A DNA stretch of 64,000 nt, from the NCBI GenBank assembly GCA_019054805.1, contig JAHQIY010000051.1, forward strand, positions 62,001 to 126,000, written 5' to 3'. The notes under the pieces are model-generated. The model did no database searches and had not been told where the DNA came from. It worked only from the letters and a program-made list of their open reading frames with translations. Source of the DNA: Brachionus manjavacas. Lineage: Eukaryota > Rotifera > Eurotatoria > Ploima > Brachionidae. Every line of letters starts with the position of its first letter. Within the stretch, counting starts at the first letter, position 1. The position numbers and the translations under genes were made by a program. Of the stretch, positions 2,277 to 41,726 are shown piece after piece.

Positions 2277-3167
2277 TTATTATTTATTTTATTTATTTGT
2301 TTATCTGTACCGAGCTAAAGCTCCTTCAGATTAAATAAAAAAAAAGAAAATTAAAAAATTAAAATAAAGTTTAGTAAAATATAACAAAAAATAAAAAATA
2401 AGAAAAAAATAAAGTTTAAATGATATAAGTTAAAAAGAAGATAAATACTAAAATTAAAATTAGAAAAATTTGATAGAGAGTAACAGAATACATATTTTTA
2501 AATATTTGATGATTCAGGAAAAAAGGAAGAAATAGTAAGGTGGCAATTACACAATGGAGTTGGGAACTCGATATATCTTGATTCGAAACCTTTGTTATAT
2601 ATTCTTCCGCCAGTCTAACATTTAATGGAACAGAATGGCTCAGTCCTGCTCTAACATATCTCTCACTCAACTCAAAAAGTCGATTAAAGACTGTTAGTAG
2701 TTTAAGTTTATTTATTATGCCTCATTATGTAATATGTTGGAGGGAGTATCATATCTTAGTTTTAGTATAGAACGTACTGCTGAATTTTGGATTACTTCTA
2801 ACCTTTTGATATTAGTTTCTGAAAGAGAGTTCAGATAAGGAAAAGAATTATCTAGAATAGATCCAATCAAAGATTTATAAAGGTTTCTAAAAGTGTTAAA
2901 GTTAAGTGTTAAAGCAAAATTTTTCAACCGAAATCTTCATTTTCCACTTGAAAAGCCACTGTTCTAATTCAAACAAGTACTTATTCATCTTACTTTCTAT
3001 ATTTCCATTTTTGTGACAAAAAAGTGACAAGATCATCTGCAAAGAGAAGTGAATATTCTTTATTAGATTTATTTCTTTTAGGAATATCATTTATAAATAT
3101 GCTAAATAATAAAGGACTAATAACTGATCCTTGAGGAACGCCAGCAGATATTTTGAATTCATCACTA
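2277..3167 (-). mobile_element. Older LINE, 3' part (interrupted by a younger LINE)
   Basis: Minus-strand 3' portion of a non-LTR retrotransposon related to the LINE next to it. Reading down from 3167 the translation gives the reverse transcriptase stretch GVPQGSVISPLLFS, an FADD catalytic box after a frameshift, the KWKMKIS motif, and a C-terminal region with KRLEVIQNSAVRSILKLRYD. The 3' end has a short UTR with the GAGCTAAAGCTC hairpin motif and a (TAAA)-rich tail at about 2277-2310. The 5' continuation is found at 7706-7930 and 19885-19985, so the element was split by two later insertions. Several frameshifts make it a relic. Confidence 0.85.
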
Positions 3168-3352
3168 TTATTTATTTATTTTTTATTTATTTGTTTTCTG
3201 TACCGAGCTAGAGCTCTTTCAGAATAAGTTAAAAATAAAATAAAAAATTAAAGTTAATAAAATTAGATAAAAAAAAAAGAATCAAAATAGAGTAAATAAG
3301 CTAAAAAATGAAAGTTGAAAAGACATAAATTGGAAAAGATTGTTACATGTAT
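3168..3352 (-). repeat. Extra copy of the LINE 3' UTR
   Basis: About 180 bp repeating the 3' end found at 3355-3565: the CTGTACCGAGCTAGAGCTC hairpin region, AT-rich stretch and TAAA tail. It lies between the younger LINE's 3' UTR and the target-site duplication. It is either a tandem duplication of the 3' UTR or a very short 5'-truncated insertion into the tail. The same arrangement exists in block B (38493 to about 38690), so it predates the A/B duplication. Confidence 0.7.
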
Positions 3353-3497
3353 CATTATTTATTTATTTATTTATTTATTTGTTTTCTGTACCGAGCTAAA
3401 GCTCCTTCAGAATAAATTAATAATAAAATAAAAAAATAAAATAAAAAAATAAAATAAAAATAAAATTAAAGTTAATAAAATTAGATAAAAAAAAGAA

Positions 3498-6391
3498 TCA
3501 AAATAAAGTAAATAAGCTAAAAAAATTAAAGTTGAAAAGACATAAATTGGAAAAGATTGTTTCATGTGGCACATGTTTTAATAGTTCAAGTTTCAGGAAA
3601 AAAGAAGAAAAAGTAAGGTAGCAATTACACAATGGAGTTGGATATTCAATATATCTTGATTCGAAACCTTCTTTGTATTCTTTCACCAGTCTAACAACCA
3701 ATGGAATAGAATGACTCAGTCCTGTCCCAACATATTTCTCACTCAACTCAAAAAGACGATTCGAGACTGTTAGTAATTTTAGTTTATTAAAAGCTTCATG
3801 TTGCACGATGTTGGAGGGAATATCATATTTTAACTTAAGGATAGATCTTACTGCTGTATTCTGAATTGCTTGTAGTTTTTTGTTATTATTTTCTGAAAAT
3901 GAATTTAAGCAAGGAAAAGAATAGTCTAAAATCGATCCGACTAAAGATTTATTTAAATTTTCTAGTGTGTTTTGATTGAGATCCCATTTTTTGTTTGACT
4001 ATATCTTAATAATATTTAGCCTTTTGTTGCAGCGTTCTTTAATTTCGTCTACTAGTATATTTAAGTTTAACTTAGAATCAAATTTAATACCAATAAACTT
4101 GATTTCTTTTTGGCTCACTATTCTGTTTCCATAGATTTTTAAGTTAAGATTATTACCCTCTTTTTTGTACCTAGAAAAGACTACTGAACACGACTTTTCA
4201 ACTGATATCTTCATTTTCCATTTAATAAGCCATTGTTCTAGTTCGTTAGTGTATTTATTTATCTTATTTTCAAGGTTCCCTTTCTTGTTATAAATGAAGA
4301 ATGTAACTAGATCATCTGCGAAAAGCAGAGAGTATTCATTATTTGTTTTGTTTCTTTTTGGGATGTCATTAATATATATACTAAATAAAAGAGGACTAAT
4401 TACTGAGCCTTGAGGAACACCTGCAGTTATTTGATATTCGTCGCTCAGATGGTCATTCACATTTACCTTAAATGTCCTAGTGTCTAAAAAGGATTTAATC
4501 CAGTTAGTCAAGTAATGAGGTGGATTCATTTTAATCAATTAAAAAAGTAGACCTTCATGCCAAACCCTATCAAAGGCTTTAGAAATATCAAAAAAAGGCC
4601 ACAAACTCTTTTTTTTCTATTAAATGATTCCACAATGTTTTGGATTAAAAAAAAAAAGATTATCTGATGTTCGCCGGTGTTTCCTAAATCCAGATTGCTC
4701 CTGGATAAGGAGTGAATTTTGTTCCAAATAATTGTATAATCTTGAAAATACTATGCGTTCCAGGAGCTTTCCTAAACAACTCGTTATACTTATTGGTCTA
4801 TAATTTAAAGGATCTTGTAAAGAAGAGGCTTTTTTTAATCATAGTAATGTTCGATGTTTTCCATGCTTTAGTGACTCTACCTTCTCGAAGAGATAAATTA
4901 AAAAGTTCTATAATTTCTATTAATGAATTTCTAGGTAATTTTTTTAACATTAGATTATAAATTTGGTCAGGTCCTGATGCCGCTTCATTTTTCAATCTTT
5001 TTAGAGCCATAATTAATTCATTTAAGCAAATTGGATCATTAAAAATTGACTGATCATAATTTCTAAAGAATTCAGAGTTAGAATTAAGTATTTCGAAATC
5101 TTTATCACGATCTATTAAATCAGAATTAGGACTAAATATTGAAGATAGAAGTTCTCCAAAGCATTTTCCCTTTTCTTCATTAGTTTTGAATTCCTTGTCA
5201 TTTAAAAACAAATTTGGGATTAAATTTGATCCTTTTTTTGATCTAAATTTATTTATTTTTTTCCAGAATGGTCTACTTGTCAGTGGGTTTTTTCCCATTA
5301 TCTCAATAAAATCAAACCAATTTTGATTCCAGAATTTTTTAAAGAGGCCTTTAACTCGAATGTAAGTTGATTAAATTTTCTCTTGAGATTTTGACAGCGA
5401 GTTTTTTGAAAGTTTCTTCTTACTTTCCTGCGTTCTTTTATCAGAATAACAATGTTCGGGGGAAGACTGGTTTTGTAGATTTTCTGCGAATGATAAGGAA
5501 TGCTTTTATGTGAAGTAGAAATAATTTTTTCTGTAATTTTATCATTTAGTTGATCTATTGTGAGGGAACTTTCAGTGATATTTACTATTTGAGAATTTAA
5601 AATCTCGCTGAATAATTGCCAGTTTGCTTTCTTATAGTTAAACTTTTTAGCTGGTGATTTATTTTCTAATTGATAGCCCATAGAAATCGATGCTTCGATT
5701 GGGAAATGGTCACTAGTCATGTCTTGACTATTTAGGACACAAAAGTCGGTAATTTTATCAATTAATGAAGATGAAACTAAGAAAAGATCAAGAATTTCAA
5801 AATAATTCCTATTAAAAATATTGAAAGTAGGACGCTTATCATTGATTACTGAGAAGTCTAACTCATTGATTATTCTTTCCAACATTATGCCGTTTTCATT
5901 TTCCCCTACGCAGCCTATTTGCTTTGTTCTGGCGTTAAGATCACCACCTAAAATGAAGTTTCTACATTTTTTATTAACAGTTTTAAAAAACTCAAAGTTC
6001 AGAAGCATATTGGGTGGGTTATAAAGACTGAATATAAACAATTCATTATTCTTTCCTAAAATCATTTTTATACAGAGGAGTTCGGAATTGAATTCCTCAT
6101 AAGAGAAATCTTGTATAAATTCAATTCCTTTATTAATTAAAATTGCTACTCCTCCTCCATACTTGTTGCGTGGTTTTGTTATGAATTGATAATTGTGAAA
6201 ATCAAGATAAATATTTGCCTCACTTAAATCTATCTTTAGTTCATTGAATAAAACAATGTCGGGACATTATTGAGCTTGGCCAAGAGATTAACCCTACTAG
6301 GTAAATGAAGACAATTCCAGTGTGTAATTACTAACCTTGTTTTATTAAGAGGTTTTGTTCTTAAAGTTGATTTATTTATCTTCTTGTTCAT
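3498..6391 (-). pseudogene. LINE ORF2: endonuclease-reverse transcriptase, broken
   Basis: ORF2 of the younger LINE. It would nick target DNA and reverse-transcribe the element RNA at the nick. From the N-terminus: an endonuclease/exonuclease/phosphatase domain with GGDLNA (near 5940) and SDHFPIE (near 5700); the linker segment ending GPDQIYN; the RT fingers and palm with GVPQGSVISPLLFS (near 4410) and LLFADDL (near 4315); KWKMKIS; then a C-terminal region with LTVSNRLFELSEKYVG. No RNase H domain is seen. The frame is broken near 6270, near 5298, near 4800, in the T-rich stretch around 4540-4650, and again downstream of 3999. Intact pieces span 5298-6065, 4798-5298, 3999-4538 and 3498-3806. 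The start is the ATG overlapping the ORF1 stop. Confidence 0.88.
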
Positions 6392-7596
6392 TCTAAATTT
6401 TCTTCAATGCTGTTTTGACTGGCAGTTTGCTGACCAATTTCGTTAGATGATTGATCTACTTGAATTGAACATTCAGTTGTTGAACTGTTTGATTCAGACT
6501 CGAAGGTACTGTCGTTTTGATTTTCTAAGACAACTAATGGTTTCTTTGATTCATTTTCGGTGAGCTCTTTTTCATTTGGATCAGATTCGGGAAATCTCTT
6601 GGTTTGATTTCTGGTTTGGAAAAAAATCTCAGTCTCATTCTGATCAATTGAGCGTACATTGACAGGTGATTGGCATATTGGTAGAAAATCGTTAAAACGA
6701 CTTACCAAAGCTTCTTCTAAAACTGGAGTTTTAAGGTCTTTTGGGCTAATTTGGGATATTACGTCATTGAAATTTGTTGGCTGATTTCTAGGTGTTTTTG
6801 GCATCACATTTTCATCATTATCTTTTTGGTCAGCTTCAAATAATGATTGCGTTTCTTCTTGGTCAATGTAAAGATCATTGTAGTCAATCTTTTTCCTTTC
6901 AAGCGACTTAAGCTTTTCGGCAATGGAGCATTTTTTTGTCAAATGTCCTTTCTGATGACAATTTTCGCATAGTGTTTCTTTGACAGGGCATTTAGCAATG
7001 TTGTGTCCTTCATCATCACAAAAATAGCATTTCTGCTTTTGTCCAACAATTGACACAAGACACTTTAAACCATACATTATTGTGGGGCCTGACAAGCTTC
7101 CAATAATATTCTCAACTTCTTTTGGAAATGATATTCTCACCCTCCTGACACCATTTTTCCTCTCGGGTCTATCTTTATATTTTTCTTCGGTTAAGTGTTC
7201 AATATTTAGTCCATCAATTCGAACAGCATTAAAGAAGGTTTCAAGTCTATGATTCACGAAATCAGAGGGCAAGAAGTGAAATCGAAAAGTACAATACCTT
7301 CTGAGATCCGGGACTTTATTTGCATCTTCAAGTCTGAATATGGTTCCATTGATATTGATGTCACGATCGAAAATTTTGGCAACATTAAAAGCAGCATTAA
7401 ACTCTATTATCCAAGCTTTGTTTGAAGAGAAATTGTAGATACTTGTGATCGCATCATTTTCCACTTGGTTGAGGACGACATCAAGTGCACTAAATAAGAC
7501 TTTATGGCTAATCGGTTTGTCTAACCTCTTCAAGTTTAGCTTGACCGAATTTTTAAATATCCACCGTCGGTTTTGGTTTGTTTTGTTGAGCGACAT
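6388..7596 (-). CDS. LINE ORF1 protein, gag-like with two zinc knuckles
   Basis: An intact frame of 402 codons from the first ATG. ORF1 proteins of this LINE group bind element RNA and act as nucleic-acid chaperones in the ribonucleoprotein. Two CCHC knuckles are visible, each C-x2-C-x4-H-x4-C, at residues 190-203 (CYFCDDEGHNIAKC) and 210-223 (CENCHQKGHLTKKC). The N-terminal 180 residues may hold an RNA-binding fold. The C-terminal third is acidic and Asn/Ser/Gln rich. The open frame can be extended 3 codons upstream, but only to a GTG. The copy in block B has lost one knuckle cysteine. Confidence 0.88.
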   Translation of the reverse strand: MSLNKTNQNRRWIFKNSVKLNLKRLDKPISHKVLFSALDVVLNQVENDAITSIYNFSSNKAWIIEFNAAFNVAKIFDRDININGTIFRLEDANKVPDLRRYCTFRFHFLPSDFVNHRLETFFNAVRIDGLNIEHLTEEKYKDRPERKNGVRRVRISFPKEVENIIGSLSGPTIMYGLKCLVSIVGQKQKCYFCDDEGHNIAKCPVKETLCENCHQKGHLTKKCSIAEKLKSLERKKIDYNDLYIDQEETQSLFEADQKDNDENVMPKTPRNQPTNFNDVISQISPKDLKTPVLEEALVSRFNDFLPICQSPVNVRSIDQNETEIFFQTRNQTKRFPESDPNEKELTENESKKPLVVLENQNDSTFESESNSSTTECSIQVDQSSNEIGQQTASQNSIEENLE

Positions 7597-7705
7597 TGCC
7601 AACACACAACTTTCAACGGTTTTTAAATCACGTGATGACGCTATTAATTAAATTTTCGTTTTTCAAATTTGCTAAGCCAAACGACAAATTTTCAAATTTT
7701 ATATC

Positions 7706-7930
7706 TCACTAATGTAATCATTTATTTTTACTTTAAATGTTCTACAGTTAAGAAATGATTTAATCTAATAAATTAAGATGGCAGGTATATTTATCTTTAT
7801 CAGCTTGTAAATTATACCTTCATGCCAAACTTTGTCGAAAGCTTTAGAAATGTCAAAAAATAAGCAACATACTTTCTTCTTTCTATTAAAAGATTCGACA
7901 ACTTTTTGGATAAGGAAAACTAAATTATAT
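7706..7930 (-). mobile_element. Older LINE, middle RT fragment, copy A
   Basis: Minus-strand reverse transcriptase of the older LINE, with CCLFFDISKAFDKVWHEGI (the first catalytic Asp block), followed after an in-frame stop by a stretch matching IKSFL.C.TFKVKINDYISE. It ends at the TCACTA target duplication of the younger LINE (7706-7711). On the other side it stops at AATTATAT (7923-7930), the target duplication of the 12-kb DNA transposon. In block B the same LINE runs uninterrupted to about 43350. Confidence 0.88.
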
Positions 7931-7974
7931 GGCAAAGTAAAAATTTTGCTCAAATTTCAATTTTCAAAATTTTC
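7931..7974 (+). repeat. Left terminal inverted repeat of the 12-kb transposon
   Basis: 44 bp starting GGCAAAGTAAAAATTTTGCT. It is the reverse complement of 19841-19884 with one mismatch at position 31. Confidence 0.95.
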
Positions 7975-8139
7975 AGATAAAAAAAATAAAAACATGTATT
8001 TTAACAGATTTGCATTGTTGCATTTGTATTAATAAATTAAATGCTAATTAACATATTTTATAAAATTTTTAATTTTACTGTAAAAAGAATAAATTAACTT
8101 TACTTTTTAATTACTTTTTAATTTTTTAAACAATTCTAA

Positions 8140-8225
8140 TGGAAGAGATTTTAATGACATCGATAATCTAAATCGAGAGAATTTAGTCGAAAACGACTCA
8201 AGTAATTTAAGAGAAAATACTTAGT
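8140..8225 (+). pseudogene. Decayed tail of a second transposase copy
   Basis: This stretch matches the last transposase exon around 16170-16255, sharing ATCGATAATCT and AATCGAGAGAATTTAGTC, with substitutions and indels. It lies just inside the left end of the element. It implies that the element once carried two copies of the transposase/coiled-coil unit, with only the 3' tail of the first transposase kept. No open frame remains. Confidence 0.75.
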
Positions 8226-8865
8226 ATAAAAAATCCAAATTTTGGTCTGCAAGTCTTATATAAGATTTTGATATTATCTTTATCGTATCATTTTTTTTTT
8301 CTTTTTTATCAATTATTTTTTAAAGGTTAGATTAATATTTTATAATAAACAAAAAATAAAAATAATAAATGACTGAACATAACTTAATTAATATTTCAAA
8401 TTAATAATACAAAAATTGATAAAAAAATTGAATCATTTATTTGCAATAATTTTTAAAAATTGATATTCAATATAGAAATTTTCGATTGGCCTTTAAACTC
8501 ATTATTTGATGAATATTTCAGTTAATATTTTCATTTTTGCAGATGATAAAAAATCTCCATAATATTTTTCATTTAAATTACTTTATTATTTAATAATATA
8601 TCAAAGGGAAAAGAAAATATTTTTTAATTTCCATAATAAATAAATGTGACAAACAAAATAGACAAATTGAACAAATATAAGTGTTAAATTTTTATTTTTT
8701 AATAAAAATATAATGAAAAATTAGTTAATTGATAATTCGTGAATTTTTTTATTCGAATTGAACATTGAACATTTATTAATAAATTAATTTATTTAAGAAT
8801 AAATAATTTTATTAATAAAGAGCTATATGAGAAAAAAGAACAATAAAAACAAAACTAAAATAATT
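8226..8865. other. AT-rich interior of the transposon, no gene
   Basis: Low-complexity AT-rich DNA between the decayed transposase tail and the stop codon of the coiled-coil gene. It probably corresponds to the spacer at 16288-16980, though only short shared words were recognised by eye. Confidence 0.5.
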
Positions 8866-11824
8866 TTAAAATTTATCTAGATATTTTTCAAAAATGTTTC
8901 CGTAAAGTTTATTATAACGACGTATAATATTGAAATGCATCACTGTTTGGTGATTTCTCATGTACTTGAATTCCTGAAAGTCCTTTCCACAAACATTGCA
9001 TATCTTTGAATGGGAATCTAAACTCTGCTTGTCCATGAATAACAAGTGTTTCAGATTACTAATTTGTTCTCTTGACAAAGAGAAAAGGTCAAAAGGAACT
9101 TCTATGTTTGAAAATGATGATTTTGATATTTCAACGATATTTTTGGAAACATCGTAATCCATTGAAGAATTGGAATTAACAAAAGGGTTCAATAATTTTT
9201 GACCTTGGCAGCTAAACTTCCTAGTTAAAACTTCCTGAGTTTTGATTAATTCTATAATTCGACTTTTCTCCATTTCAATCTCAGCCTTAAATTAAATAAA
9301 ATAAATTAAAAAAAAATATAACAAACCTTAAGTTTCTCGTTATCCAAATTAATAAAACTATATTTCTTAAAAAGATTTTGCCCTTCTTCAAAAATACTGT
9401 CATAAGATTTTTGAAGACCACCAAGTTCAATTCTAGTCGAGTCCAACTGAGTCTGGATGCTAATATTTGACTGTTTTAGGTAGTCAATCTACTTTTGCTT
9501 TTGGGACACAAGCTTGTGATTCTGGCTAGATATAGATTCAATTTTAGAATTTAAAAAATCTTCATAAGATTTTTGCAGACCACCAAGTTTAATTTGAGTC
9601 GAGTCCAATTCAGTCTGGATACTTTGATTTGACTGTATTAGGGAGTCAATCTCCTTTTGCTTTTGGGCCACAAGCTTGTCATTCTGGCTGGATAAAGATT
9701 CAATTTTTGAATTTAAATAATCTTCATAAGATTTTGCAGACCACCAAGTTTAATTTGAGTCGAGTCCAATTCAGTCTGGATACTTTGATTTGACTGTATT
9801 AGGGAGTCAATCTCCTTTTGCTTTTGGGCCACAAGCTTGTCATTCTGGCTGGATAAAGATTCAATTTTTGAATTTAAAAAATCTTCATAAGATTTTTGCA
9901 GACCACCAAGTTTAATTTGAGTCGAGTCCAATTCAGTCTGGATACTTTGATTTGACTGTATTAGGGAGTCAATCTCCTTTTGCTTTTGGGCCACAAGCTT
10001 GTCATTCTGGCTGGATAAAGATTCAATTTTTGAATTTAAAAAATCTTCATAAGATTTTTGCAGACCACCAAGTTTAATTTGAGTCGAGTCCAATTCAGTC
10101 TGGATACTTTGATTTGACTGTATTAGGGAGTCAATCTCCTTTTGCTTTTGGGCCACAAGCTTGTCATTCTGGCTGGATAAAGATTCAATTTTTGAATTTA
10201 AAAAATCTTCATAAGATTTTTGCAGACCACCAAGTTTAATTTGAGTCGAGTCCAACTCAGTCTGGATACTTAGATATGACTGTTTTAGGGAGTCAATCTC
10301 CTTTTGCTTTTGGGCCACAAGCTTGTCATTCTGGCTAGATAAAGATTCAATTTTTGAATTTAAATAATCTTCATAAGATTTTTGCAGACCACCAAGTTTA
10401 ATTTGAGTCGAGTCCAATTCAGTCTGGATACTTTGATTTGACTGTATTAGGGAGTCAATCTCCTTTTGCTTTTGGGCCACAAGCTTGTCATTCTGGCTGG
10501 ATAAAGATTCAATTTTTGAATTTAAAAATCTTCATAAGATTTTTGCAGACCACCAAGTTTAATTTGAGTCGAGTCCAATTCAGTCTGGATACTTTGATTT
10601 GACTGTATTAGGGAGTCAATCTCCTTTTGCTTTTGGGCCACAAGCTTGTCATTCTGGCTGGATAAAGATTCAATTTTTGAATTTAAATAATCTTCATAAG
10701 ATTTTTGCAGACCACCAAGTTTAATTTGAGTCGAGTCCAACATAGTCTGGATGCTTAGGTTTTCTTCTTTCATTAATTTATAAGCATTTTCTTTCACATC
10801 TAACTCTTTATGCATTTTTTCAAATTCGCTTATCTTTTCTGTAACTAAGATTTTTTTTTCTTCCGTTAATATCTCAATTATGTCATTTTTATATTTTAGT
10901 TCAATTATTTTATCATCACAAATTGTTTTTAAATTTTCTTGATGATCTCTTTCTTGTTTTATTAATTTCATTTTTCCCGCTTCCTCACTTTCTAAAAGTT
11001 CTCCAATTTCTTTTTTCATATCTAGAATGCATTCGTTTCTTTTTTTTAACTCATTTCTATGACAATTATGACTCTCTTCAATGCATCTAAAAAAATTATT
11101 TTAAAAAAATATTTCTTAATTTTACAAAATTAAACTTTTCTTTTTCCTGTATTATATCCTTTAGTGTCTGATAGCTTTCACTGAAAATCTTAATCGTATC
11201 ATTAATACAATTTTGATTTTTTTGACTTTCAATTATATTATCATCGAATTTATTTTTGCTTTTTTTATGCCAAGTTTGATGACTTTTGAGACCTCTTTGT
11301 GATTGGAAGCTTTTATTACATTCATCACATGCGTAAGGCAAAATATTTTTTTTTGGTTTTTCGTTAGGTTTTCTATTTATTTTTTCAAATTTTTGGTCAT
11401 TTTCCACACTCATTAAACAATCCTGTTCCTTAATTTCTTCCAAGAAACTTTTTTCCCAGCTACTTTTTTTAAATGAAAAAAATTTGATATTTTCCTCATG
11501 ATCCCATTCATTTTCATTTATCTTGTGACAAGTCTCTGACCGTGTAATTTCATCATCATCTACTTGGTACTCTTCAAGATTACCATCGGATAAACTTGGC
11601 ATGATTCTATCCAAAATGCCTGTCTCTTTTCTGTCGGCTAATTTGTCATTTGTGTTTGACTTTTGTATTTTTGACTTTAGAGAGAGAGACACTTTCTTTG
11701 AGCCTAAATCAACTATATCATTCAAACCTGATTTGATTATATTAAATAAATTTCTTTGCTCGGGTAATTCAGCAGAAGAGCTTGAGCTCAACACTGGTCT
11801 TTTTTGACTTTTCGTAGTATTCAT
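8866..11824 (-). pseudogene. Coiled-coil protein with a C2H2 finger at each end (transposon cargo), slightly broken
   Basis: Three exons on the minus strand: 11824-11136, 11086-9327 and 9285-8866, with introns of 49 and 41 bp and compatible phases. Exon 1 starts at ATG (MNTTKSQKRP) and holds a C2H2 finger, CDECNKSFQSQRGLKSH then H four residues on. Exon 2 is a long coiled coil: a unique segment (KKEIGELLESEEAGK) followed by about nine 54-residue repeats with the core KQKEIDSL and LDSTQIKLGGLQKSYEDF. Exon 3 ends with a second finger (CNVCGKDFQEFKYMRNH). The frame is broken by 1-nt losses near 10525 and 9730 and by a TAG near 9489. It is divergent from the transposase with about 300 bp between the starts. 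Function is unknown: the fingers suggest DNA binding, perhaps to element ends, and the coil suggests oligomerisation. Confidence 0.8.
9390..10780 (-). repeat. 162-bp in-frame coding repeats, about nine units
   Basis: Tandem units of 162 bp (54 codons) inside the coiled-coil gene. Each contains AAGCTTGTCATTCTGGCT and CACCAAGTTTAATTTGAGTC on the plus strand. The units from about 9560 to 10700 are nearly identical, showing recent amplification or homogenisation. Outer units are more diverged. Two 1-bp losses break the frame. Confidence 0.92.
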
Positions 11825-12129
11825 TGTTGTTTTTGTGTATATAATAAAAAAATTAAAAAATTTTGAAATTAAAAGTCAAAAATAAGGGAAAGGTAAAGTT
11901 TAACAGAAAGAATTTTTGGGAAAATCAATGCTTAAGAGAAAGAATTTTAGGGAAAAGCAATGTTTAAGAGAAAGAATTTTAGGGAAAAGCAATGTTTAAG
12001 AGAAAGAATTTTAGGGAAAGGCAATGTTTAAAAGAAAAAGAACTTTAAGGTTATTTATTTTTCTTAGCATATCAAGGAAAATAAATACCCAAATAGCAAA
12101 AAACAGTTAAACTTTTTAAAACTTTAACT
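11825..12129. promoter_or_regulatory. Divergent promoter region with four 32-bp tandem repeats
   Basis: The 305 bp between the start codons of the coiled-coil gene (minus) and the transposase (plus) hold four tandem units of 32 bp starting at 11907, 11939, 11971 and 12003. The consensus contains AGGGAAAAGCAATGTTTAAG. The middle two are almost identical. Position between divergent genes suggests a shared promoter or a subterminal-type transposase binding array. No TATA box can be assigned with confidence in this AT-rich DNA. Confidence 0.6.
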
Positions 12130-15100
12130 ATGTCTATACCTCGATTCGATTTTGCAGTTAGAATGTCTTTTGATGAATGGACTGAGCACGTTACAATGAT
12201 CAAGTCAAATAATGAGAGAAAGAGGCTCCTTGTTGATTTTCATGATAATCTCTCTTATAAGCTTCAGAATGTATATGGAAATAAGACTTGGTTAAAAAAC
12301 AAATACAATTGGTTCAATGAAAAAATATATTGGTCAGGCCGCTATGACTGTCTCTATAATAAATGTCTGTCTAAGTTCTATTGCTATATTGAAAATGAAC
12401 CAATTCAAAATGAAGATATATTAATAATTGTTCAACAAAATGGTGATTGTCTACATGAAAGGATAATAAAAAAAAGGAGATGTACACGAGAAGAAAAAAC
12501 TGTTTTAGGTCTAGAAATATTGGGTAAAGGTTTATCAAATGTCTTGGATGACAATATTGTTAGCAATTTTGAAAAATGTTGTGAAGAGGATTTTTTTAAT
12601 GGTAATTTTAATTTTTAAAAATTTTTCACAAAAGTGAAACCTTTGTAACCCGGCTATTAAGAAACCCTAAATTTTTTGTTTTTTGTAAGGAAAGGGGGGA
12701 GGGATGCTTAAAGAAAACAATCTTGAACCCAGGGGTCCAAAAATAACATACTCCATAAAAAATTGTAGTTCTTTCAGACTCTGGTATTCAATGATAGAAT
12801 TAAAGAGCTTTTTAAAGTTGTATATATTCTGAAAGAGCATAAAATTTTCTACACTCTGTTCATTTTTTTGTTCAACAAAAAAAATTGAGTCAATTTTATT
12901 TATTAAAAAAAGCCAAAAACAACGCATATTTTTACTTGAAATGTATGTAGTCCCATTTATTACTTAAGTCCAAAAATTTTTTATAAAAATTAATCTCTAA
13001 AGTATATAATTTCATTTAAGTTTTGAATATAATTATTATGTTGATAAAAATTTCAATTACAGTAAAATTTGTTTTTTAACGTCACACTTCAAGACCAAGA
13101 ATTGGGTTTTGGTTTGTTGAAAAAAATTTTCAAGACTTAAGATAGCGAAGATGAAAATCTATGCAACTGGAAGCCAACTTAATGATGAAATTTTCAGTTT
13201 TGATTTTTTAGTAAGTCGAAAAAACTTTTAATTTAAGGTACCAAAACCAAATTCTTGGGCTTTAAGTGCGACGTTATAAAACAAATATTTACGGTACTTT
13301 TTAAATATTTTGGAATCAAATAAAATTTTTTTAAGCAAAAATTACAAATAAAAATGTAATGAAGACTTTAAAAAGTGGACTCAAAAATGAATTCAGAGTG
13401 AGCAATGATTATTCAATAGACTCAAGAGCTGGATTATGGCTTTGTAAGAAAATTTGTATTCCAACAAAGAACATGGACGGATTTATACAAGAAATTTCTG
13501 AATATCCTTTTGGTTTAATGTTAATGAATGAAATTCAGGTACTTTTAAAAATATGATGTAAATTATAACTACAAATATTTAAAGATAAAAATTTGGTTAA
13601 AAATTCAGGAAATAAATTCTGTTTGGTATCTTGATGCTACAGGATCTGTAATTAAAAATATTCCTGACCAAAAGGATCCATTTTTATTTTCTCTAGTGAT
13701 GCACGATCCCCTGAAGAAAACAATTATTCCAATTTTCGATTTTATTTCGACTTCGCACAATTCAATTACAATTTCAAAATATTTGTTTAATTTTAAAAAA
13801 TATTTGGAAATAATAGTTCCTACTGAATCATTTAGATATCCAGCTGTGATAGTCGTAGATTTCTCATGGGCCTTTATCAATTCGATTCTAGAGACTTTCA
13901 ACAAATGTACAAATCAGCAATATTTAGATAGGTCATTTGACTTAATTGTTTTGAAAAAAAAAAAATGTGATGCTTTTTTGAATTGCTTAATGGCCACAAA
14001 AGTTTATCTTTGTTCCACACATTTTTTGAAGCTAATTATTTCTAAAGTAGACAAATTAAAAGTCAAAATTGATTTAAAGCGAACGTTTATTCTTGCATTT
14101 ACATTGCTACAAAATTCAAAAGAGTTAGTCGAGTTTGAGCGGAATCTAAAAAATATATTTTATATTTTTAACCAAAAAGTTTGATAAATTGATTTTTTTT
14201 AATTAATTTGACTTTTTAAAAAAATTTTATTTTTCTTATCTAGTTTGAGAGTTCTCTAGTCAACGAATCATTGGTATATGTTCGAATAAGGGATTTTGAC
14301 AGTGGTGAGCTTGAGAAAATAGTTAATGAAAACAAAAACGATGAGATGAAAAATATGAAATATACTTTGTTGAAAGAAAATTACAATGAAATAGCAAAAA
14401 CCATAAAATACTCATCAAAATATAAAAATTATTTTGAAAAATATTTAAAAGGTTTAAATACTCAAATCGAGGGAGGTAATGAACAAACTATGTTGAATTC
14501 TAATTACTTCTACAGTCCAGAACTTTTTAAAATCATTGAGAAATATCTTTATTTAGTTCCACTATGGTCAGGGCTGCTTATTTATGATCAAAATTTGAAA
14601 AAATGTAGATTAAGTAATAATCCTGTTGAGAACTGGTTTGGTCATTTAAAAAATAATATGCTCAATAGGGAGAAAGTAATGCCTAGTAAATTTGTTGGTA
14701 TCTTATACAAGAAAATATTATCAAAATACCTATTGTACTATAATGAAAATCAACTGACCATTGTAAATCCTGTCAAAACTAAATTTAGTTTTGAAGAAGA
14801 AAAGTGGCGCAAAAACGAAATAAAAAAAGACAAAAAGGCTTTTATTTTCAAAGTATAAAAAATCTTGGATTTGGAAATGAATCAAAAACAATTCAAGGTA
14901 TTAAAAGAAAATTTAATTATAACCTTTTAAAATAAAAATATTAGATTATGATATTCTTGATGAAAACAAAATAAAGTCTTTAAACAAAAGGTGAGTTTTT
15001 AAATATTTTATTTTTAATTTTATATTAAAAGATTTAAAATTTACATTTGTAGATGTTTTTAAAAATAGTGTAAAATGGATTTTCATCGACCTTACTAATT

Positions 15101-16287
15101 AAAAACATTACTTTTTTAAATTCTATATTAAAATGATACATTAAATCATGTCAATTGAATTTACATTGACCTAATTAGTAATATATCATTTAAGAAAACT
15201 TTATAAAGGAGACTTACTAAAATAGTTAACTTAATAAATTTTTAATTTTTTTTAGTCACTGTAATTTAAAAATTGTAAAAAATGTTATTCCAAAAAATGG
15301 TTCATTTTTCAAAAATGGAAATATTATTACTGAAATCAAAAATACATGCACAATTGATTATTTCATTTTGTTTTCATATATTGTGTCGAAAAAGAAAATA
15401 AATATTCATGAAATCCGTAATTCCAAAACGATAGAAAATTTTTACTTAAAATTTTTGAGAGAAATTGAAACACTTATCGACAAAAATAATTGGGATATTG
15501 GGCGTCTGACATGGCTAAATATTATTTTATCCATTGAAAAAAAGAAAATTTCTGAAAATTTTTATAGTTACAATTGTTTTAATTCTGAATATGCTTCATT
15601 TCTGAGCAGATATTCGTTTATACAATCATTTACAAGTTTTACAAGATGCCCTGATTTAAATTGTTTAACCAATAAAAATCCCTTACAAACTTTTTCTGCC
15701 TTTAGCTTAAAGTATACAATTTTTTTTAATTATATTTATCTAATAATTTAAAATTTAGAAAAAAAGAAAAGCAAATATTTATTGATTCCAGATATTTTGA
15801 CAATAAACTCAAAATTTTATGTGATTCAAGAACATTTGTTGATATGAATGGTGTTGTAGAAGAAAAGTATACAGCGTTTCTTTTAAAAAATTAAATTAAT
15901 TAATTCTAATAAAAATATTAAGAGAACTATGCAGAGAAATTTTAGAAATTTCTAATCCAAATTTTTTAAGCAATTGTTTTCCACTCTTGCTAATAGTTAA
16001 CAATCATATTAAAGAAGCAAATCCGAAAGATATTCCAATTTTTTTCAATATAGAGAACGAAACGTAAATAAATAAAAGTAAAAAAAGTATTATTTATGTT
16101 CAATTTAAGGTATCAATTAATTGGGTTTACACTTCATTGCAAAGACCATTTTATCATGAAAATTTTTGATGGAAAAGATTTTTTTGATATCGATAATCTT
16201 AATCGAGAGAATTTAGTCAAAAACAATACAAGAATTCTAGGAGAAAAAACTTTTAGGATAACAAATGCTTTTTATGAAAAACTCTAA
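12130..16287 (+). pseudogene. MULE-like transposase with C-terminal peptidase-like module, one frameshift
   Basis: Nine exons with consistent phases: 12130-12601, 13336-13538, 13609-14178, 14244-14897, 14945-14990, 15256-15711, 15759-15866, 15923-16063, 16110-16287; about 942 residues. Residues 60-120 (WSGRYDCLYNKC, then GDCLH) resemble the FLYWCH/WRKY-GCM1-type zinc cluster often found in MULE transposases. The core has LDATGSV (Asp234), VVDFSWAFIN (Asp309), LCSTHF (Cys360, His363) and NPVENWFGHLKN (Glu544), matching a D-D-C..H-E layout. From about 650 comes a separate module with NTCTIDYF (Cys680), GFTLHCKDHF (His897) and an Asp-rich end, like a USP/Ulp-type cysteine peptidase. Exon 4 needs one extra base near 14825-14850 to stay in frame, so this copy is probably dead or has an assembly error. 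The superfamily is inferred from motifs only. Confidence 0.78.
13060..13294. mobile_element. 235-bp MITE in transposase intron 1
   Basis: Flanked by TA on both sides (13058-13059 and 13295-13296). The ends are inverted: CAGTAAAATTTG on the left and the inverse CCGTAAATATTTG on the right. A longer inner inverted repeat contains ACGTCACACTT and CCAAGAATTGGG with a few mismatches. TA duplication and CAGT-like ends fit a Tc1/mariner-derived MITE. It lies within the 734-bp first intron of the transposase, which explains that intron's unusual length. Confidence 0.75.
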
Positions 16288-16980
16288 TAAAATTTAAACT
16301 TTTGATTATTAATATTAAAATTTACTAAATTTTTTAAAAAAATTAATTTTCTTTCATTAAAAAACTAAAAAACTTAAAAACTGTAAAAAGTATTTAAAAT
16401 GAAAAAAAATATTTGAAATATTTATCATCAGCAAAATGAATATAATAAAAAAAAAATTAATTAAATAATGATTTTAAAAACTAATCGAAATTCATTTTTG
16501 AATATATTTTAATAAAAAATATTGCAAATAATCAATTTAATTTTTTTTATCTTTAATCATATTATTAATTTTAATTAATATAAAATTTTATTATGTTCAA
16601 CCATTTATTATTTTTTTTTTATTTTTATAATAAAATAAGTTTAACTTAAAAAAATATAAAATAAAAACCTGAAAAAAAGACACAATGAAATAATATCTGG
16701 GTATAAATAATCGTGACATTAAAATTGACCAATTTCTTAAAATAGAATCGAATTAATGAATTAAATTAAAATTATTAAAAATTAAAAATTTGAACAAATA
16801 TAAAATTAAATTAAATAATGAAAAAAAATAAAAAAAATTATATTATTGGAAAAATAATAATGCATCAGCATTGCGTAAATGCTTGAGATCATAATGACCA
16901 ATTCAATCAAAATATTTTATTTATTTTTTTAAGAAATTTTTAATAAAAAAAGAATTTTTTTCAATAATTTAAATGAAAAT
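16288..16980. other. AT-rich spacer inside the transposon
   Basis: Very AT-rich DNA with long A and T runs between the transposase stop codon and the decayed repeat array. No open frame or element end was recognised. Confidence 0.5.
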
Positions 16981-19690
16981 ACAAAGTTCAATTCTAGTCG
17001 AGTCAAACAGAGTCTGGATGCTAAGATTCGACTGTTTTAGAGAGTCAAACTCCTTTTGCTTTTGGGACACAAGCTTGTGATTCTGGCTAGATAAAGATTC
17101 AATTTTTGGCTTTTAAAAATCATCAATTGAATTTTGCAGACCACCAGGTTGAATTCGAGTCGAGTCAAACAGAGTCTGGATGCTAAGATTCGACTGTTTT
17201 AGTAGCGAGTCAATCTCCTTTTGCTTTTGGGACACAAGCTTGTGATTCTGGCTAGATATAGATTCAATTTTTGAATTTTAAAAATCATCAATTGAATTTT
17301 GCAGACCACCAGGTTGAATTCGAGTCGAGTCAAACAGAGTCTGGATGCTAAGATTCGACTGTTTTAGAGAGTCAAACTCCTTTTGCTTTTGGGACACAAG
17401 CTTGTGATTCTGGCTAGATATAGATTCAATTTTTGGATTTTAAAAATCATCAATTGAATTTTGCAGACCACCAGGTTGAATTCGAGTCGAGTCAAACAGA
17501 GTCTGGATGCTAAGATTCGACTGTTTTAGTAGCGAGTCAATCTCCTTTTGCTTTTGGGACACAAGCTTGTGATTCTGGCTAGATATAGATTCAATTTTTG
17601 AATTTTAAAAATCATCAATTGAATTTTGCAGACCACCAGGTTGAATTCGAGTCGAGTCAAACAGAGTCTGGATGCTAAGATTCGACTGTTTTAGAGAGTC
17701 AAACTCCTTTTGCTTTTGGGACACAAGCTTGTGATTCTGGCTAGATATAGATTCAATTTTTGGATTATAAAAATCATCAATTGAATTTTGCAGACCACCA
17801 GGTTGAATTCGAGTCGAGTCAAACAGAGTCTGGATGCTAAGATTCGACTGTTTTAGTAGCGAGTCAATCTCCTTTTGCTTTTGGGACACAAGCTTGTGAT
17901 TCTGGCTAGATATAGATTCAATTTTTGAATTTTAAAAATCATCAATTGAATTTTGCAGACCACCAGGTTGAATTCGAGTCGAGTCAAACAGAGTCTGGAT
18001 GCTAAGATTCGACTGTTTTAGTAGCGAGTCAAACTCTTTTTGCTTTTGGGACACAAGCTTGTGATTCTGGCTAGATATAGATTCAATTTTTGAATTTTAA
18101 AAATCATCAATTGAATTTTGCAGACCACCAGGTTGAATTCGAGTCGAGTCAAACAGAGTCTGGATGCTAAGATTCGACTGTTTTAGTAGCGAGTCAATCT
18201 CCTTTTGCTTTTGGGACACAAGCTTGTGATTCTGGCTAGATATAGATTCAATTTTTGAATTTTAAAATCATCGATTGAATTTTGCAGACCATTAGGTTGA
18301 ATTCGAGTCGAGTCAAACAGAGTCTGGATGCTAAGATTCGACTGTTTTAGTAGCGAGTCAATCTCCTTTTGCTTTTGGGACACAAGCTTGTGATTCTGGC
18401 TAGATATAGATTCAATTTTTGAATTTTAAAATCATCGATTGAATTTTGCAGACCATTAGGTTGAATTCGAGTCGAGTCAAACAGAGTCTGGATGCTAAGA
18501 TTCGACTGTTTTAGTAGCGAGTCAATCTCCTTTTGCTTTTGGGACACAAGCTTGTGATTCTGGCTAGATATAGATTCAATTTTTGAATTTTAAAATCATC
18601 GATTGAATTTTGCAGACCATTAGGTTGAATTCGAGTCGAGTCAAACAGAGTCTGGATGCTAAGATTCGACTGTTTTAGTAGCGAGTCAATCTCCTTTTGC
18701 TTTTGGGACACAAGCTTGTGATTCTGGCTAGATATAGATTCAATTTTTGAATTTTAAAAATCATCAATTGAATTTTGCAGACCACCAGGTTGAATTCGAG
18801 TCGAGTCAAACAGAGTCTGGATGCTAAGATTCGACTGTTTTAGTAGCGAGTCAATCTCCTTTTGCTTTTGGGACACAAGCTTGTGATTCTGGCTAGATAT
18901 AGATTCAATTTTTGAATTTTAAAAATCATCAATTGAATTTTGCAGACCACCAGGTTGAATTCGAGTCGAGTCAAACAGAGTCTGGATGCTAAGATTCGAC
19001 TGTTTTAGAGAGTCAAACTCCTTTTGCTTTTGGGACACAAGCTTGTGATTCTGGCTAGATATAGATTCAATTTTTGGATTATAAAAATCATCAATTGAAT
19101 TTTGCAGACCACCAGGTTGAATTCGAGTCGAGTCAAACAGAGTCTGGATGCTAAGATTCGACTGTTTTAGTAGCGAGTCAATCTCCTTTTGCTTTTGGGA
19201 CACAAGCTTGTGATTCTGGCTAGATATAGATTCAATTTTAGAATTTAAAAAATCTTCATATGATTTTTGCATTCCACCAAGTTCAATTCTAGTCGAGTAA
19301 AACTGAGTCTGGATGCTTAGATTTGACTGTTTTAGCGAGTCAATCTCCTTTTGCTTTTGGGACACAAGCTTGTGATTCTGGCTAGATATAGATTCAATTT
19401 TAGAATTTAAAAAATTTTAAGTTTTCTAATTATATTTTTAGACTTTTGGTCAATTTCCACACACTTTAAAGAATTCAGTTCTTTAATTTTTTCCAAGAAA
19501 CTTTTTCCCTGCTACTTTTTAAAACGAAAAAAAGATGATATTTTCCTCCATCTGATAAACTTCGCATAATTCTTTCCAAAATGTCTGTATTTTTTCTGTC
19601 GGATAATTTGTCATTTGTTTTTGACTTTTCTATTTTTTTTAAGCTAGGAAGATACATCATTGATATTTTTTCTGCTAAATGCACTCGATT
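16981..19690 (-). pseudogene. Decayed second copy of the coiled-coil/zinc-finger gene
   Basis: On the minus strand, 19690 to about 19430 matches the N-terminal region of the 8866-11824 gene: KSKTNDKLSDRK and ERIMRSLSDG correspond to KSNTNDKLADRK and DRIMPSLSDG there, but the zinc finger is lost. It runs into about fifteen repeat units ending near 16985. The repeat sense strand reads QKQKEIDSL...QSNLSIQTLFDSTRIQPGGLQ, clearly related to the intact gene. The period is 163-164 bp, so the frame is lost at almost every unit and stops occur throughout. The C-terminal finger is absent. It cannot encode a long protein; it is a relic that kept amplifying as DNA. Confidence 0.85.
16985..19400 (-). repeat. 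Tandem array of about fifteen 163-164-bp units (decayed coding repeats)
   Basis: AGTCTGGATGCTAAGATTCG recurs about every 164 bp from 17010 to 19150. Two variants alternate in part: units with TTTTAGTAGCGAGTC and units with TTTTAGAGAGTC. Three consecutive units between 18250 and 18650 share the same 1-bp loss and ACCATTAGG variant, showing block amplification after the frame was lost. Confidence 0.92.
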
Positions 19691-19840
19691 TAGATGTCAG
19701 AAACCAAAAAAAATTTTCCAGAAAAATTTTCGTTTTAGAAATAAAATTTATATTATAATAAATTTAAATTATCATTTCTTTATTATTTGAAATGCATAGA
19801 TGCAAATCTGTTTAAATGCATATTTTTATTTATTTCATTT

Positions 19841-19884
19841 GAAAATTTTGAAATTTGAAATTTGAGCAAAATTTTTACTTTGCC
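19841..19884 (-). repeat. Right terminal inverted repeat of the 12-kb transposon
   Basis: 44 bp ending in TTTTTACTTTGCC, the inverse of 7931-7974 with one mismatch. It is followed by AATTATAT (19885-19892), the second copy of the target duplication. Confidence 0.95.
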
Positions 19885-19985
19885 AATTATATGCGGTTCT
19901 TCGATGTTTCCTAAAACCAGATTGTTCCTGAATTAACAAAGAATTTTTTTCCAAGAAATCATAGTTCTCAAAATTTCATTAATTA
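19885..19985 (-). mobile_element. Older LINE, 5'-most RT fragment, copy A
   Basis: Continuation of the older LINE beyond the 12-kb insertion. The minus-strand translation includes NSLLIQEQSGFRKHRRTAYN, a reverse transcriptase block immediately upstream of the fragment at 7706-7930. The LINE is 5'-truncated at about 19985, where unrelated sequence begins. Confidence 0.8.
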
Positions 19986-21053
19986 TTAGCGGTGATAGTT
20001 TTATTTAAGCCTTTATGTTCTTAGCGCTTCCGTGCAAATAGAGTTTATTTAAAAAATTATAGCAAGATATGTATTAAAGAAAAAATTTCACATATTCATT
20101 ATAAGATTATTATTATTATTAATTAGATAATTTGAGGGTAACTTTCAGGCTGTGAAAAATGAACACTTCCCTTCTTTGGATAAATTTAAACAAGATATAA
20201 TAAGTTTTAAATTTTGAAGTGTTGATCGGTCCTGAAAATTAGGAGAAAATGATAAGATAGAAATTAAAAAATCACAAGTTTCAAAATTAATCAACAGGCT
20301 AGTGCCTATGTCCATTAAAGGCCGATTTAACTAAGTCCGGACTTGGACTTGTCTTGAGAATTGTTACTTTTAAGTGCTCTGAGTCAATAGATTAAATTGC
20401 TGAAACGATTTGTTTTGCTTTTAATTCACTTTTTAGGTTTTATTTCCTCTTAATAAAATAATCTTTGTTTCAAAGTTAAAAAAACTATTTTTCTGTGATT
20501 TTCCTACTAATAGGATTGTTAATAAAAATTGTAAAAAAATATTAATTTTCTGCATTAAGCAAATTTTCTTAAATTTAAGCATTTTACAGAACTAAAGATC
20601 TCTTTTATCTTCACAATCCCTGGAATTTTTTTTGAAATTTTGAAATTAAATTTAAAAATAGCCATAATAAGTTAGCAGATGCAAATAAATGATAAATCAA
20701 AATTAAAATAATCATTTTCATGAATATGCTAAAAAATTAATCAATTTATTTGAAAATTTCAATTATCTTCAAATTAAACATTTTTTATACCTTTTAAAAT
20801 TTACAGAAAAATAAAAAATTCAAATCTTAAATTTAAAATTTTGAAATATTCGCATGAAAATTCACAAAGCCACCAATTTTGGAATCTAAGAAAAAAATTA
20901 TTTTTCAATTTCGTTCCAAAAAATTAACAAAATGTAAAATACACCTCTAAAATATAAAGTTTAAAAAACGGAAGGTTAAATTGTTATATTAATATTGAGC
21001 TTTATCTATAAATCAGCTATGCTAAAAGACTGTGACTTTACCATTTTATTAAG
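19986..21053. other. AT-rich non-coding DNA upstream of the first visible ADAM10 exon
   Basis: Single-copy-looking sequence shared with 43351-44410 in block B. It is presumably the 3' end of an intron that precedes the first visible ADAM10 exon. No signal-peptide or prodomain coding exon was recognised here. Confidence 0.6.
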
Positions 21054-22007
21054 GGCTATGATCCATATAGTTATTTGGAACAATCCCGTGACGAATACAG
21101 CAAATATTATCGTGAAGCTAATGAAAAATTTTGGAAAAAAACCAAACGTCAGTCAGATGATGGACGGCTTAGATGGCCTGGTGACAGAACAATATGTAAT
21201 TTGTACCTGAGAGTAGATCCACAGCTACATACCGAAATATTCAATAATGAAGGAAACAAAGTAAACAAAAACGTGACAAGTTTAAAAAACAAATTTTAAA
21301 TTTTCATTCCAAACAAAAGGACATGGATAAAACAACTACATTTTTGCTTTTCTACTTAAACAAGCATGTAGAAGCCCTCAACACAATCTACAATAGTCTA
21401 CCATTCTACGATCAAAACAAAGAAAAATACTTAATAGGCCTTCAGTTCATGATTTATAGAACAAAAATAATAACCCAGGAGCAATGCCAAAACGGCACTG
21501 GTTTGTCACCGGAGGAGCTAAAATTGTGCGAGCCTTACTTGGATGTGTCAAATTTTTTAAACTACGTCTCACTGGACAACTTTACAGACTTTTGTTTGTC
21601 TTACACATTTACAGCCCGTGATTTTACTGACGGGACACTGGGTCTGGCTTGGGTGGCCAAATTAGCAGGCAGTGTTGGTGGTGTTTGCGAAAAACGTCAA
21701 ACATTGCAAGGTGTTGCCAAAAGTCTCAACAGTGGTATAGTGACAGTGGTTAATTATCAATCGAGAGTGCCCGAAGCTGTTTCTCAGATAACATTTGCAC
21801 ACGAAATAGGACACAATTTTGGCTCAGAACACGATCCTGACGATCCATCTTGCTCGCCCGGATCAAGCAGAGGTGGAAATTACATCATGAACAGACGTGC
21901 CACCACTGGCACTGACAAGAATAACAGAAATTTCTCGACATGCAGTCGGGATCAAATGGGAACCATTGTTCACAATCTAATTTCTGGGCCTAAATTCTGC
22001 TTCAAGC

Positions 22008-23390
22008 GTAAGATCTTAATTTTTTATAATAGATTCAATATTTTTTAAAATTAACAGTGTTCAATTTCTTTTAAAGTCATTTGACTTCACTTTAAATTTT
22101 GACATTGAAAATTGTAAATTTGAATTTTAGAACAATTTACTAAAGATAATAAGATAAAAAGTCTTAAAACTATTAAATTAAAAAAGACTTAATAATCAAA
22201 ATAATGATAAAATAATTTTCTTGACTTAAAAAAATCTATTTTTGAATTGATGATCATTTCTACTACAACTACACTATTGCTATGATAAACTTTTTTTACG
22301 AAATTTTTAGTAAATTTTAGTAAATATACATAGGACAAAATAAAGAAAAAATGGCGATTTTTAGGAATTTTTCTTTTATTTTTAGAAAATTAAAATGAAA
22401 ATTGAAAAAAAAATACGAAATTTTACGTAAATTTTTATTATAAAAAAATTGAAAAATGGTAAATTTTAGTAAAGTCAAGTTACTTATTGTCTTTGATGAA
22501 ACTTTTAAAAATTAGTTTTTTTTTTGCATAATTCCGTTTAATTAAAATATGTATTGTATAAATATTATATGTACCCCGTGAAAAGTTAAAAAAATGTTAT
22601 TGAACTACCAGTGATTTAGGCTGCCTAATTTTGTGACCGTGATGTATAACCGATTTCGCAGACCAACACTTAAATTGAAAAAAATTGAAAAAAGAAAATA
22701 AAAAATTATAAGTTTGAATTTTTTAAAAACTAATAAGATATAGTTTATGCTCAAATGAAAAATCAAGCTTTATAATTAATAATTTGTTTATGTTTTAATA
22801 GCTTTTGTTATAATTCTTAACATTTTTTACTTAAAATGAATTTTTATTTATTTTTTTATTTGTTTTTTCTCTTGTAAAGTAAAGTATTTCTTCTCTTATT
22901 GATTTTTGATATGATCTACTTGGATAATATTAGTTGAATTCATCTTTCAGATAAAAAATAATGTGATAACCAAATAGAAAAGTGAACTTGTGAGCAATTT
23001 ATTTTAAATTGTATAAAATTCTATAAAAATATGAAACTTAAAATTTGTTTATATATTTTTTTTAAATTTATGTAAACTAATATTCATTTTGAAAAAGCAT
23101 TTAATGTTTTATTTGAACAAAATTGCTCCCAACTTCACTCTCTCATAGTCAACAATTTATTTTTTAATATTGGAATTATTATAGGTTGTAAATGGAGAAA
23201 AAACTTATTATCAATTATTTTTTTGTATTCAGAAATATTTGTTGTTGATGGAAAAAAATACAAATCAGCGCCAAAACGATTTATTATTTAAAAATTTTTA
23301 AATTTTTATTTTTCTTTTTGTTTAAAAAAAAAAAAATACAAATTTTTCAGCCATAGTGTTTTAAAAGAAATTTTCCTCATTTTTTTATAG
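22008..23390 (+). other. ADAM10 intron, copy A
   Basis: A 1.38-kb AT-rich intron. The donor is CAAGC|GTAAGA and the acceptor TTTTTTATAG|AGTACAG. It holds the empty TA target (near 22440) of the 871-bp element that sits in the block B intron. No gene is seen. Confidence 0.8.
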
Positions 23391-30537: not shown

Positions 30538-30539
30538 TA

Positions 30540-31203: not shown

Positions 31204-31246
31204 TAACTTTTTATTTTAAAAAATTTATTTATTTTTTTACTTTTTT

Positions 31247-41706: not shown

Positions 41707-41726
41707 TCTAAATTTTCTATCTAATT

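Follow-up and report, generated by a model that had tools for sequence, protein, structure and literature searches.

The window analysed here, a stretch of 64,000 bp from a contig of Brachionus manjavacas, contains an element of 11,954 bp (positions 7931-19884), both inverted ends of which begin with GGCAAAGTAAAA. The terminal inverted repeats (TIRs) match perfectly over the first 30 bp and at 43 of the first 44 bases, and they extend to ~159-160 aligned positions at ~82% identity (left TIR 7931-8089, 159 bp, forward strand; right TIR 19729-19884, reverse strand, from the inverted-repeat alignment). An alternative count, which includes one base beyond each end, gives 107 nt at 88%. An 8-bp target site duplication (TSD), AATTATAT, flanks the element at 7923-7930 and 19885-19892. 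An earlier note on this DNA had described 44-bp inverted ends and an 8-bp duplication, exact to the base, and both descriptions hold.

The element lies in one copy, block A, of a repeated block. Positions 1-7931 of block A align to 35333-43252 of block B (98.6%) and positions 19885-22440 align to 43244-45812 (97.9%), and because the two alignments overlap by the duplicated bases, block B represents an empty site with one AATTATAT (43244-43251). The two blocks that the earlier note recognised are both present, but the block family is larger: among the best 40 of 1040 candidates scored, at least 11 full-length copies of the left flank (7200-7930), A included, were found in the genome. The site was read in seven of the at least 10 copies other than A (L009 and L011-L016, L016 being block B), and all seven bear a single AATTATAT without a gap, with both 50-bp flanks identical at the empty site. 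In the remaining three block copies, and likewise at three further places on contig C24, the match to the search query stops at the insertion point. Block A shares 99.0-99.6% identity in the flanks with the seven empty copies (alignments of ~3.7 kb in five of them, 2.6 kb in L011 and 2.2 kb in L013), and the insertion is young because the nearest empty copy is 99.6% identical. The earlier claims of an uninterrupted sequence in block B, to which six further empty copies can now be added, and of a precise and recent DNA transposon insertion are thus supported by the ends, the TSD, the empty sites and the flank identity. The distribution of the seven empty copies over contigs C51, C53 and C39 is in keeping with paralogous blocks; a heterozygous insertion and a paralogue look alike here. 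The target in block A was probably a LINE reverse-transcriptase-like frame. Repetitive, satellite-rich contigs such as these could in principle yield the difference between A and B by misassembly, or the element could have been excised precisely from B with no insertion into A. Either event is highly improbable given seven of seven other block copies with a single target copy and no footprint, the matching TSD and ends of the element, and a 1,160-bp copy of its left end (97%) elsewhere, on C16.

The element carries two divergently transcribed genes. The transposase gene (12130-16287, forward strand) comprises four blocks (12130-12601, 13336-13538, 13585-14178 and 14244-14852) that splice with GT-AG into 627 aa, followed by C-terminal blocks at 15230-15751 and 16072-16287, before which the open frame stops near 14856. 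C...C...C.H residues in its N-terminal region could be zinc ligands. The catalytic core exon (13585-14178, forward strand) holds D1, D2 and CxxH in the motif alignment and the next exon holds the E, so that the D, D, CxxH, E core of MULEs is found in the window transposase. The C-terminal tail (15254-15706, forward strand), which we call NTC-type after its motif NTCTIDYF and which also has a late HxxHF-like motif, is 40% identical to the tail of a relative on C11. Intron 1 harbours a palindromic MITE-like insertion (13067-13290, read by eye).

The second gene, gene 2 (8866-11824, reverse strand), has an N-terminal part with a C2H2-like finger, coiled-coil-like tandem repeats and a C-terminal C2H2-like part. 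Its repeat array (9390-10758, reverse strand) consists of 8.4 units of 162 bp (54 aa) with a 96% match; its introns, read by eye, are short and of the GT-AG type. This agrees with the divergent coiled-coil/double zinc-finger gene described earlier, with the fingers scoring under the Pfam cut-offs and the coiled coil putative. Over much of its right third, the element holds no separate cargo but a degenerate second gene 2 (16981-19696, reverse strand), with an N-terminal remnant, a 165-bp array of 14.8 units and broken frames. A piece of the last transposase exon sits in the left subterminal region in direct orientation (8139-8234, forward strand), and an inverted copy (75%) of left subterminal sequence (~8270-8585) is found at 16384-16678 on the reverse strand. 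As assembled, the frame of gene 2 is interrupted at several points of its array, and together with the stop in the transposase frame these breaks make the window copy look partly decayed. Because its frames are broken, it may have been mobilised by the transposase of another copy.

Other copies with the same ends, which the earlier reading predicts, are present in the genome. A second complete element of 16,050 bp (C24:563990-580039, read with ~7.7 kb of its middle excluded) shares the first 11 bases of both its ends with the window element and has TIRs of 967/1006 bp (94.8%) and a 9-bp TSD, TAATGAGAA; its gene 2 adjoins one end and its transposase lies on the opposite strand, in the divergent order of the window. 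Partial copies with these ends occur on C1, where a right end was sought and not found, and on C16, and short elements with paired ends occur on C5 and C3, with TSDs matching at 7/8 and 8/9 positions by eye. Two complete members of this MULE-like lineage are thus available in one genome, one of them a recent two-gene insertion whose ends and empty sites are defined to the base. The gene pair is also retained in divergent order on C2 (two copies) and C11, and in decayed form on C1, so gene 2 is not peculiar to the window copy. The two C2 copies form a 99.5% inverted duplicate and therefore count as one event; the inverted repeats flanking this pair were rejected as element ends, since they overlap sequence of the last transposase exon.

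In the genome, 80 stretches match the transposase family, several of them pieces of one copy. Family members in alignment A1 are 37-52% identical to the window exon and conserve D, D and CxxH. In a tree of the core, the four rows with gene 2 and/or the NTC-type tail group with support 78/78, under a long-branch warning from the tree program that includes the branch of the window. The sister clades bear other tails, either OTU or Ulp1 with RING.

In a profile alignment with ordinary MULEs of the same genome, D1, D2, CxxH and the E within NxPxE are all in register, which supports the earlier description of the transposase as MULE-like. The profile-HMM scores are not significant by themselves: hhalign P values were 0.087, 0.091 and 0.055, and the score of 21.8 (P = 0.055) was exceeded in 2 of the 60 column shuffles, for which -mact was not set. 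Pfam gave chance-level matches with single transposase exons and no family up to E = 10 with the spliced 627-aa protein, and a genome search with PF10551 listed nothing inside the element among the best 150 of 394 candidates scored. The lineage is thus divergent enough that Pfam misses the window transposase; a family member on C29 (L054) shows a weak Pfam MULE match over the same core (E = 0.093). Sequence searches of PDB with alignments A1 and A2 returned one chance-level match each (E = 0.45 and 6.3), and viral contigs scanned with A1 gave 68 pattern matches and no confirmed relatives. An AlphaFold model of the core exon alone had a pLDDT of 37 and was set aside. A spliced-leader sequence ascribed to rotifers was looked for and not found at up to 1 mismatch.

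An 8-bp TSD is also compatible with hAT or P elements. The subsignificant MULE profile match, the 8-bp TSD of the window and the long D2-E spacing of 234 residues might accordingly point to another DDE superfamily with a TSD of about 8 bp and a CxxH (hAT, P or an unnamed one). We consider an origin outside MULEs improbable: the TSD is 9 bp in the C24 element and 9 bp with one mismatch in the short element on C3, the inverted ends are long, all four catalytic motifs are in register with the MULEs of the genome, and among the family proteins scanned MULE was the only transposase model matched by Pfam, even weakly. The TSDs agree with the 8-11 bp of MULEs (8 bp in the window, 9 bp in C24 and, allowing one mismatch each, ~8 and ~9 bp in the two short elements), as do the TIRs, often long in MULEs (159 bp at 82% and ~1 kb at 94.8%). 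In arthropod MULEs, D1 and D2 are 60-76 residues apart (84 in one clade) and D2 and E 120-214 (PMC13359780); the D1-D2 spacing of 74 in the window fits this range, and the D2-E spacing lies above any printed there. The window transposase is most likely a very divergent MULE, the motif register adding to profile scores that alone are not significant. Overall, the element is best explained as a large DNA transposon that moves by cut-and-paste, belongs to a divergent lineage of MULEs and carries a gene for an accessory DNA-binding partner (probability roughly 0.8).

Gene 2 could instead be a passenger, or a captured host gene, without a role in transposition. No gene 2 match was found within the 9.9 kb read around each of two members, on C3 (OTU) and C34 (Ulp1), at E up to 0.01, and gene 2 is therefore not needed by every clade; the idea that it is part of every family member is unsupported at these two loci. 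Moreover, its frames are broken in the window copy, and on C26 over 60 kb separates pieces of gene 2 from the closest transposase-family match listed there. On the other hand, gene 2 adjoins the transposase in all three clade lineages read (window and C1; C2; C11 and C24), it is ~38-44% identical between lineages with its C2H2 parts retained, and among the 5 and 7 gene 2 matches listed in this genome none resembles an intact host gene. A passenger is thus possible but doubtful. The retention of the partner beside the transposase over deep divergence makes the long-standing question of how MULE accessory proteins act open to testing. The C34 stretch also contains other unmatched acidic or coil-like ORFs downstream of the transposase.

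The inverted ends with their duplication, the empty sites, the conservation of the gene pair and the motif register are direct observations, whereas all biochemical roles, and a part for the partner in transposition, are inferred. The transposase, with its DDE core, MULE-type CxxH and protease-like tail, would bind the inverted ends, excise the element and insert it at a staggered cut in the target, which yields duplications of 8-9 bp. The gene 2 protein (C2H2, coiled coil, C2H2) would most likely be an accessory DNA-binding protein, oligomerising through its coiled coil and helping to hold the distant ends together. In a more far-reaching reading, which is less likely than not, the lineage may have swapped transposase tails among ubiquitin/SUMO-type cysteine proteases (OTU, Ulp1 with RING, and the NTC-type tail, as yet unassigned), and the NTC clade may have gained an obligate, divergent, repeat-expanding C2H2-coiled-coil partner, tail and partner forming a lineage-specific transposition complex.

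The mudrB gene of maize MuDR encodes a different type of protein from gene 2, whose product in the window combines a coiled-coil-like array with two C2H2-like parts. MuDR (mudrA/mudrB) is like the window element a MULE with a second gene, apparently needed for integration (PMC6446971, available in part, as for all comparisons citing it). The gene combination, which the earlier note did not recognise as a known one, is preceded by Spectre and Mutyl, partial precedents that make the pairing of a transposase with a C2H2 partner not new in kind. Spectre MULEs of aphids share with the window element a C2H2 ORF beside a MULE transposase, an 8-bp TSD and TIRs (Dupeyron et al. 2019, PMC6446971); the C2H2 parts of the window are below cut-off and the C24 relative has 9 bp. 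A complete Spectre has perfect 74-bp TIRs, whereas those of the window are imperfect, and the available part of the source mentions neither a protease tail nor an array of coiled-coil repeats, where the window element has a protease-like tail and a coiled-coil-like array, the likeness being one of description only (PMC6446971). The fungal Mutyl/Hop group resembles the window lineage in its second ORF, MutB, with C2H2 listed, and differs in its host and 22-bp TIR; its TSD is 9-10 bp, and MutB is antisense in the table of the source and in the same orientation in its introduction (PMC6446971). Internal minisatellites are also found in Phantom MULEs of aphids and in Rehavkus, after or inside the transposase, whereas the window array lies in gene 2 and its degenerate second copy (PMC6446971). 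What is unusual here is the size, a partner with a tandem coiled-coil-like array, and the fact that sister clades differ in their protease-like tails. C-terminal Ulp1 or OTU tails are known from Ginger1 and Mutator transposases and alternate between Ginger1 families, as described in the part of PMC2836005 available, and the present family likewise carries C-terminal ubiquitin/SUMO-type proteases. Ginger1 has a 4-bp TSD (CCGG/CCGT) and a Gypsy-integrase-like core, whereas the elements here have TSDs of 8-9 bp, a MULE-like core and no Pfam integrase match (PMC2836005). These results support a repeated joining of ubiquitin/SUMO proteases to DNA transposases.

The element spans 11,954 bp (7931-19884) and bears GGCAAAGTAAAAATTTTGCT at both termini in inverted orientation, with AATTATAT on either side as the flanking duplication. 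Its inverted ends are perfect over 30 bp, differ at one position in the first 44, and extend to ~159 bp in total at 82% identity. Block A, which holds the element, and the empty block B align on both sides of the insertion, and the two matches overlap by the duplicated bases. In the genome (114.17 Mb, 61 contigs; the window is bases 62,001-126,000 of contig C51), the left flank occurs in at least 11 full-length copies, A included. All seven copies read from the 10 other than A are empty without a footprint, and the joined flanks of A share 99.0-99.6% identity with them over alignments of ~3.7 kb in five cases and of 2.6 and 2.2 kb in the other two. The insertion is therefore recent, and its target was block A. 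By eye, the target sits within a LINE reverse-transcriptase-like frame. Block B carries an extra stretch without counterpart in A (45801-46695), with 54-bp inverted ends (96%); because A is unbroken at 22439-22440, where B has 45812-46684, B has a candidate insertion of its own.

On the plus strand, GT-AG splicing of the transposase blocks yields 627 aa with D, D, CxxH and E, interrupted by introns of 734, 46 and 65 bp, the first of which by eye harbours a MITE-like palindrome. Downstream, C-terminal blocks with the motif NTCTIDYF and, much later, HCKDHF form a putative coding continuation, and the open frame stops near 14856; one piece of the last exon is also found in the left subterminal region of the element. 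Gene 2 lies on the minus strand with its start at 11824. Its array (162 bp × 8.4) encodes 54-aa coiled-coil-like repeats, and its C2H2-like finger (E = 1.5e-4) and C-terminal C2H2-like part (best E = 0.0033) both score below the Pfam cut-off. Several frame breaks occur in the assembled array, and those at base runs may be due to assembly error. A degenerate second copy of gene 2 is present on the same strand (16981-19696), with a 165-bp × 14.8 array. From this anatomy, an RNase-H-type transposase would act on the inverted ends by cut-and-paste; the gene 2 product, given its domains and its conservation beside the transposase, would be an accessory factor that binds the ends and oligomerises.

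The TSD length, the long ends, the motif order and the D1-D2 spacing are compatible with MULE. The hhalign matches to MULE are weak (P = 0.087, with further runs at 0.091 and 0.055), although D, D, CxxH and E are all in register in the latter two, and 2 of 60 column shuffles (run without -mact) exceeded the score of 21.8. These values, together with a D2-E spacing above those printed for arthropod MULEs, would suit a transposase from another superfamily, to which we give about one chance in eight. We place the element, on the features that agree, as a probable divergent lineage within MULE.

PMC6446971 treats Mutyl and MuDR, minisatellites in Phantom, an ovarian-tumour gene in MuDR-6_HM, and Spectre, which like the window element pairs a C2H2 ORF with a transposase and has an 8-bp TSD, with a TIR of 74 bp. 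Arthropod MULEs of up to 10.0 kb, with residue spacings (PMC13359780), and DNA transposases bearing OTU, Ulp1 and C19 domains (PMC2836005) are described; PMC6431247 was consulted on large elements. Among the open papers listed (12 of 511, 10 of 168 and 12 of 16 hits), no title or abstract describes a MULE that combines a coiled-coil C2H2 partner with the tails described below, although such an element may still be in print.

Genome-wide, 44 matching places are listed, with the pairing of ends examined in a minority. A complete relative on C24 (563,990 to 580,039; 16,050 bp, ~7.7 kb of the middle unread) has TIRs of 967/1006 bp (94.8%) and TAATGAGAA as TSD on both sides; the gene 2 C-terminus is close to one end, and the transposase is on the opposite strand. 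C11 bears a transposase of the same subfamily beside a divergent gene 2 that has C2H2 and coil-like parts (39% across 71 aa in tblastn, E = 2.7e-8), and C2 has the gene pair twice, as a 99.5% inverted duplicate. By eye, a fragment of a Merlin/IS1016-like transposase, next to a 101-bp × 9 array, follows the C2 transposase core (L068:6178-7347). A decayed copy on C1 shares the left end, at 93% across 100 bp, and retains fragments of both genes, C16 has a 1,160-bp left-end fragment (97%), and short elements with paired ends occur on C5 and C3, with TSD matches of 7/8 and 8/9 (19 loci scanned).

The core exon of the transposase has 80 matching stretches, several being pieces of a single copy. Family matches bunch near one end of C2 (9.14-9.78 Mb) and on C24, C30 and C31, regions that are perhaps repeat-rich. 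D, D and CxxH are conserved in a core-exon alignment of 12 sequences, which were picked from open frames of ≥150 aa, so that decayed copies are missing from it. Tails differ among clades. One carries OTU (PF02338; L041 reaches 26.4 bits, above the 23.3 cut-off, and L071 and L038 fall short of it), and another Ulp1 together with a RING-like segment (PF02902 match slightly under the cut-off, E = 7.6e-4; L070, read at C34 only). Downstream of the C34 transposase (L070:2933-3388), the Ulp1-like piece is fused to the RING-like zinc finger and followed on the same strand by acidic/coil-like ORFs. Between the window and C11, the tails are 40% identical, with no hit beyond chance among Pfam and PDB families; judged by its motifs, the NTCTIDYF tail may be a cysteine protease. 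In a core tree of 19 rows (C1 was removed from the initial 20 for low coverage, 85 residues), the four Ulp1 rows group together (support 100/99), three of them labelled through 95-99% identity to C34 with their own tails unread. So do the five OTU rows (90/93; labels of C13 and C26b taken from sequence matches) and the gene 2/NTCTIDYF rows of the window, C2, C11 and C24 (78/78; C2 assigned by gene 2, its tail unread). Six rows bear no label, and the tree program flags long branches, the window's included.

Elsewhere in the window, ~643-bp satellite monomers on the minus strand match Rfam RAGATH-11 (RF03148) at 348-468, 33752-35800 (four copies) and 51939-63629 (19 copies), with 24 matches in total, scoring ~105 bits where the cut-off is 79; by this match, the satellite is predicted to carry a conserved structured RNA. 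The 10 papers listed by a literature search do not use the name RAGATH-11. The satellite may be a self-cleaving or retrozyme-like unit. Block A also contains a large inverted repeat (30537-33247), with arms of ~667 bp at 99.5% identity and a core of 1.35 kb.
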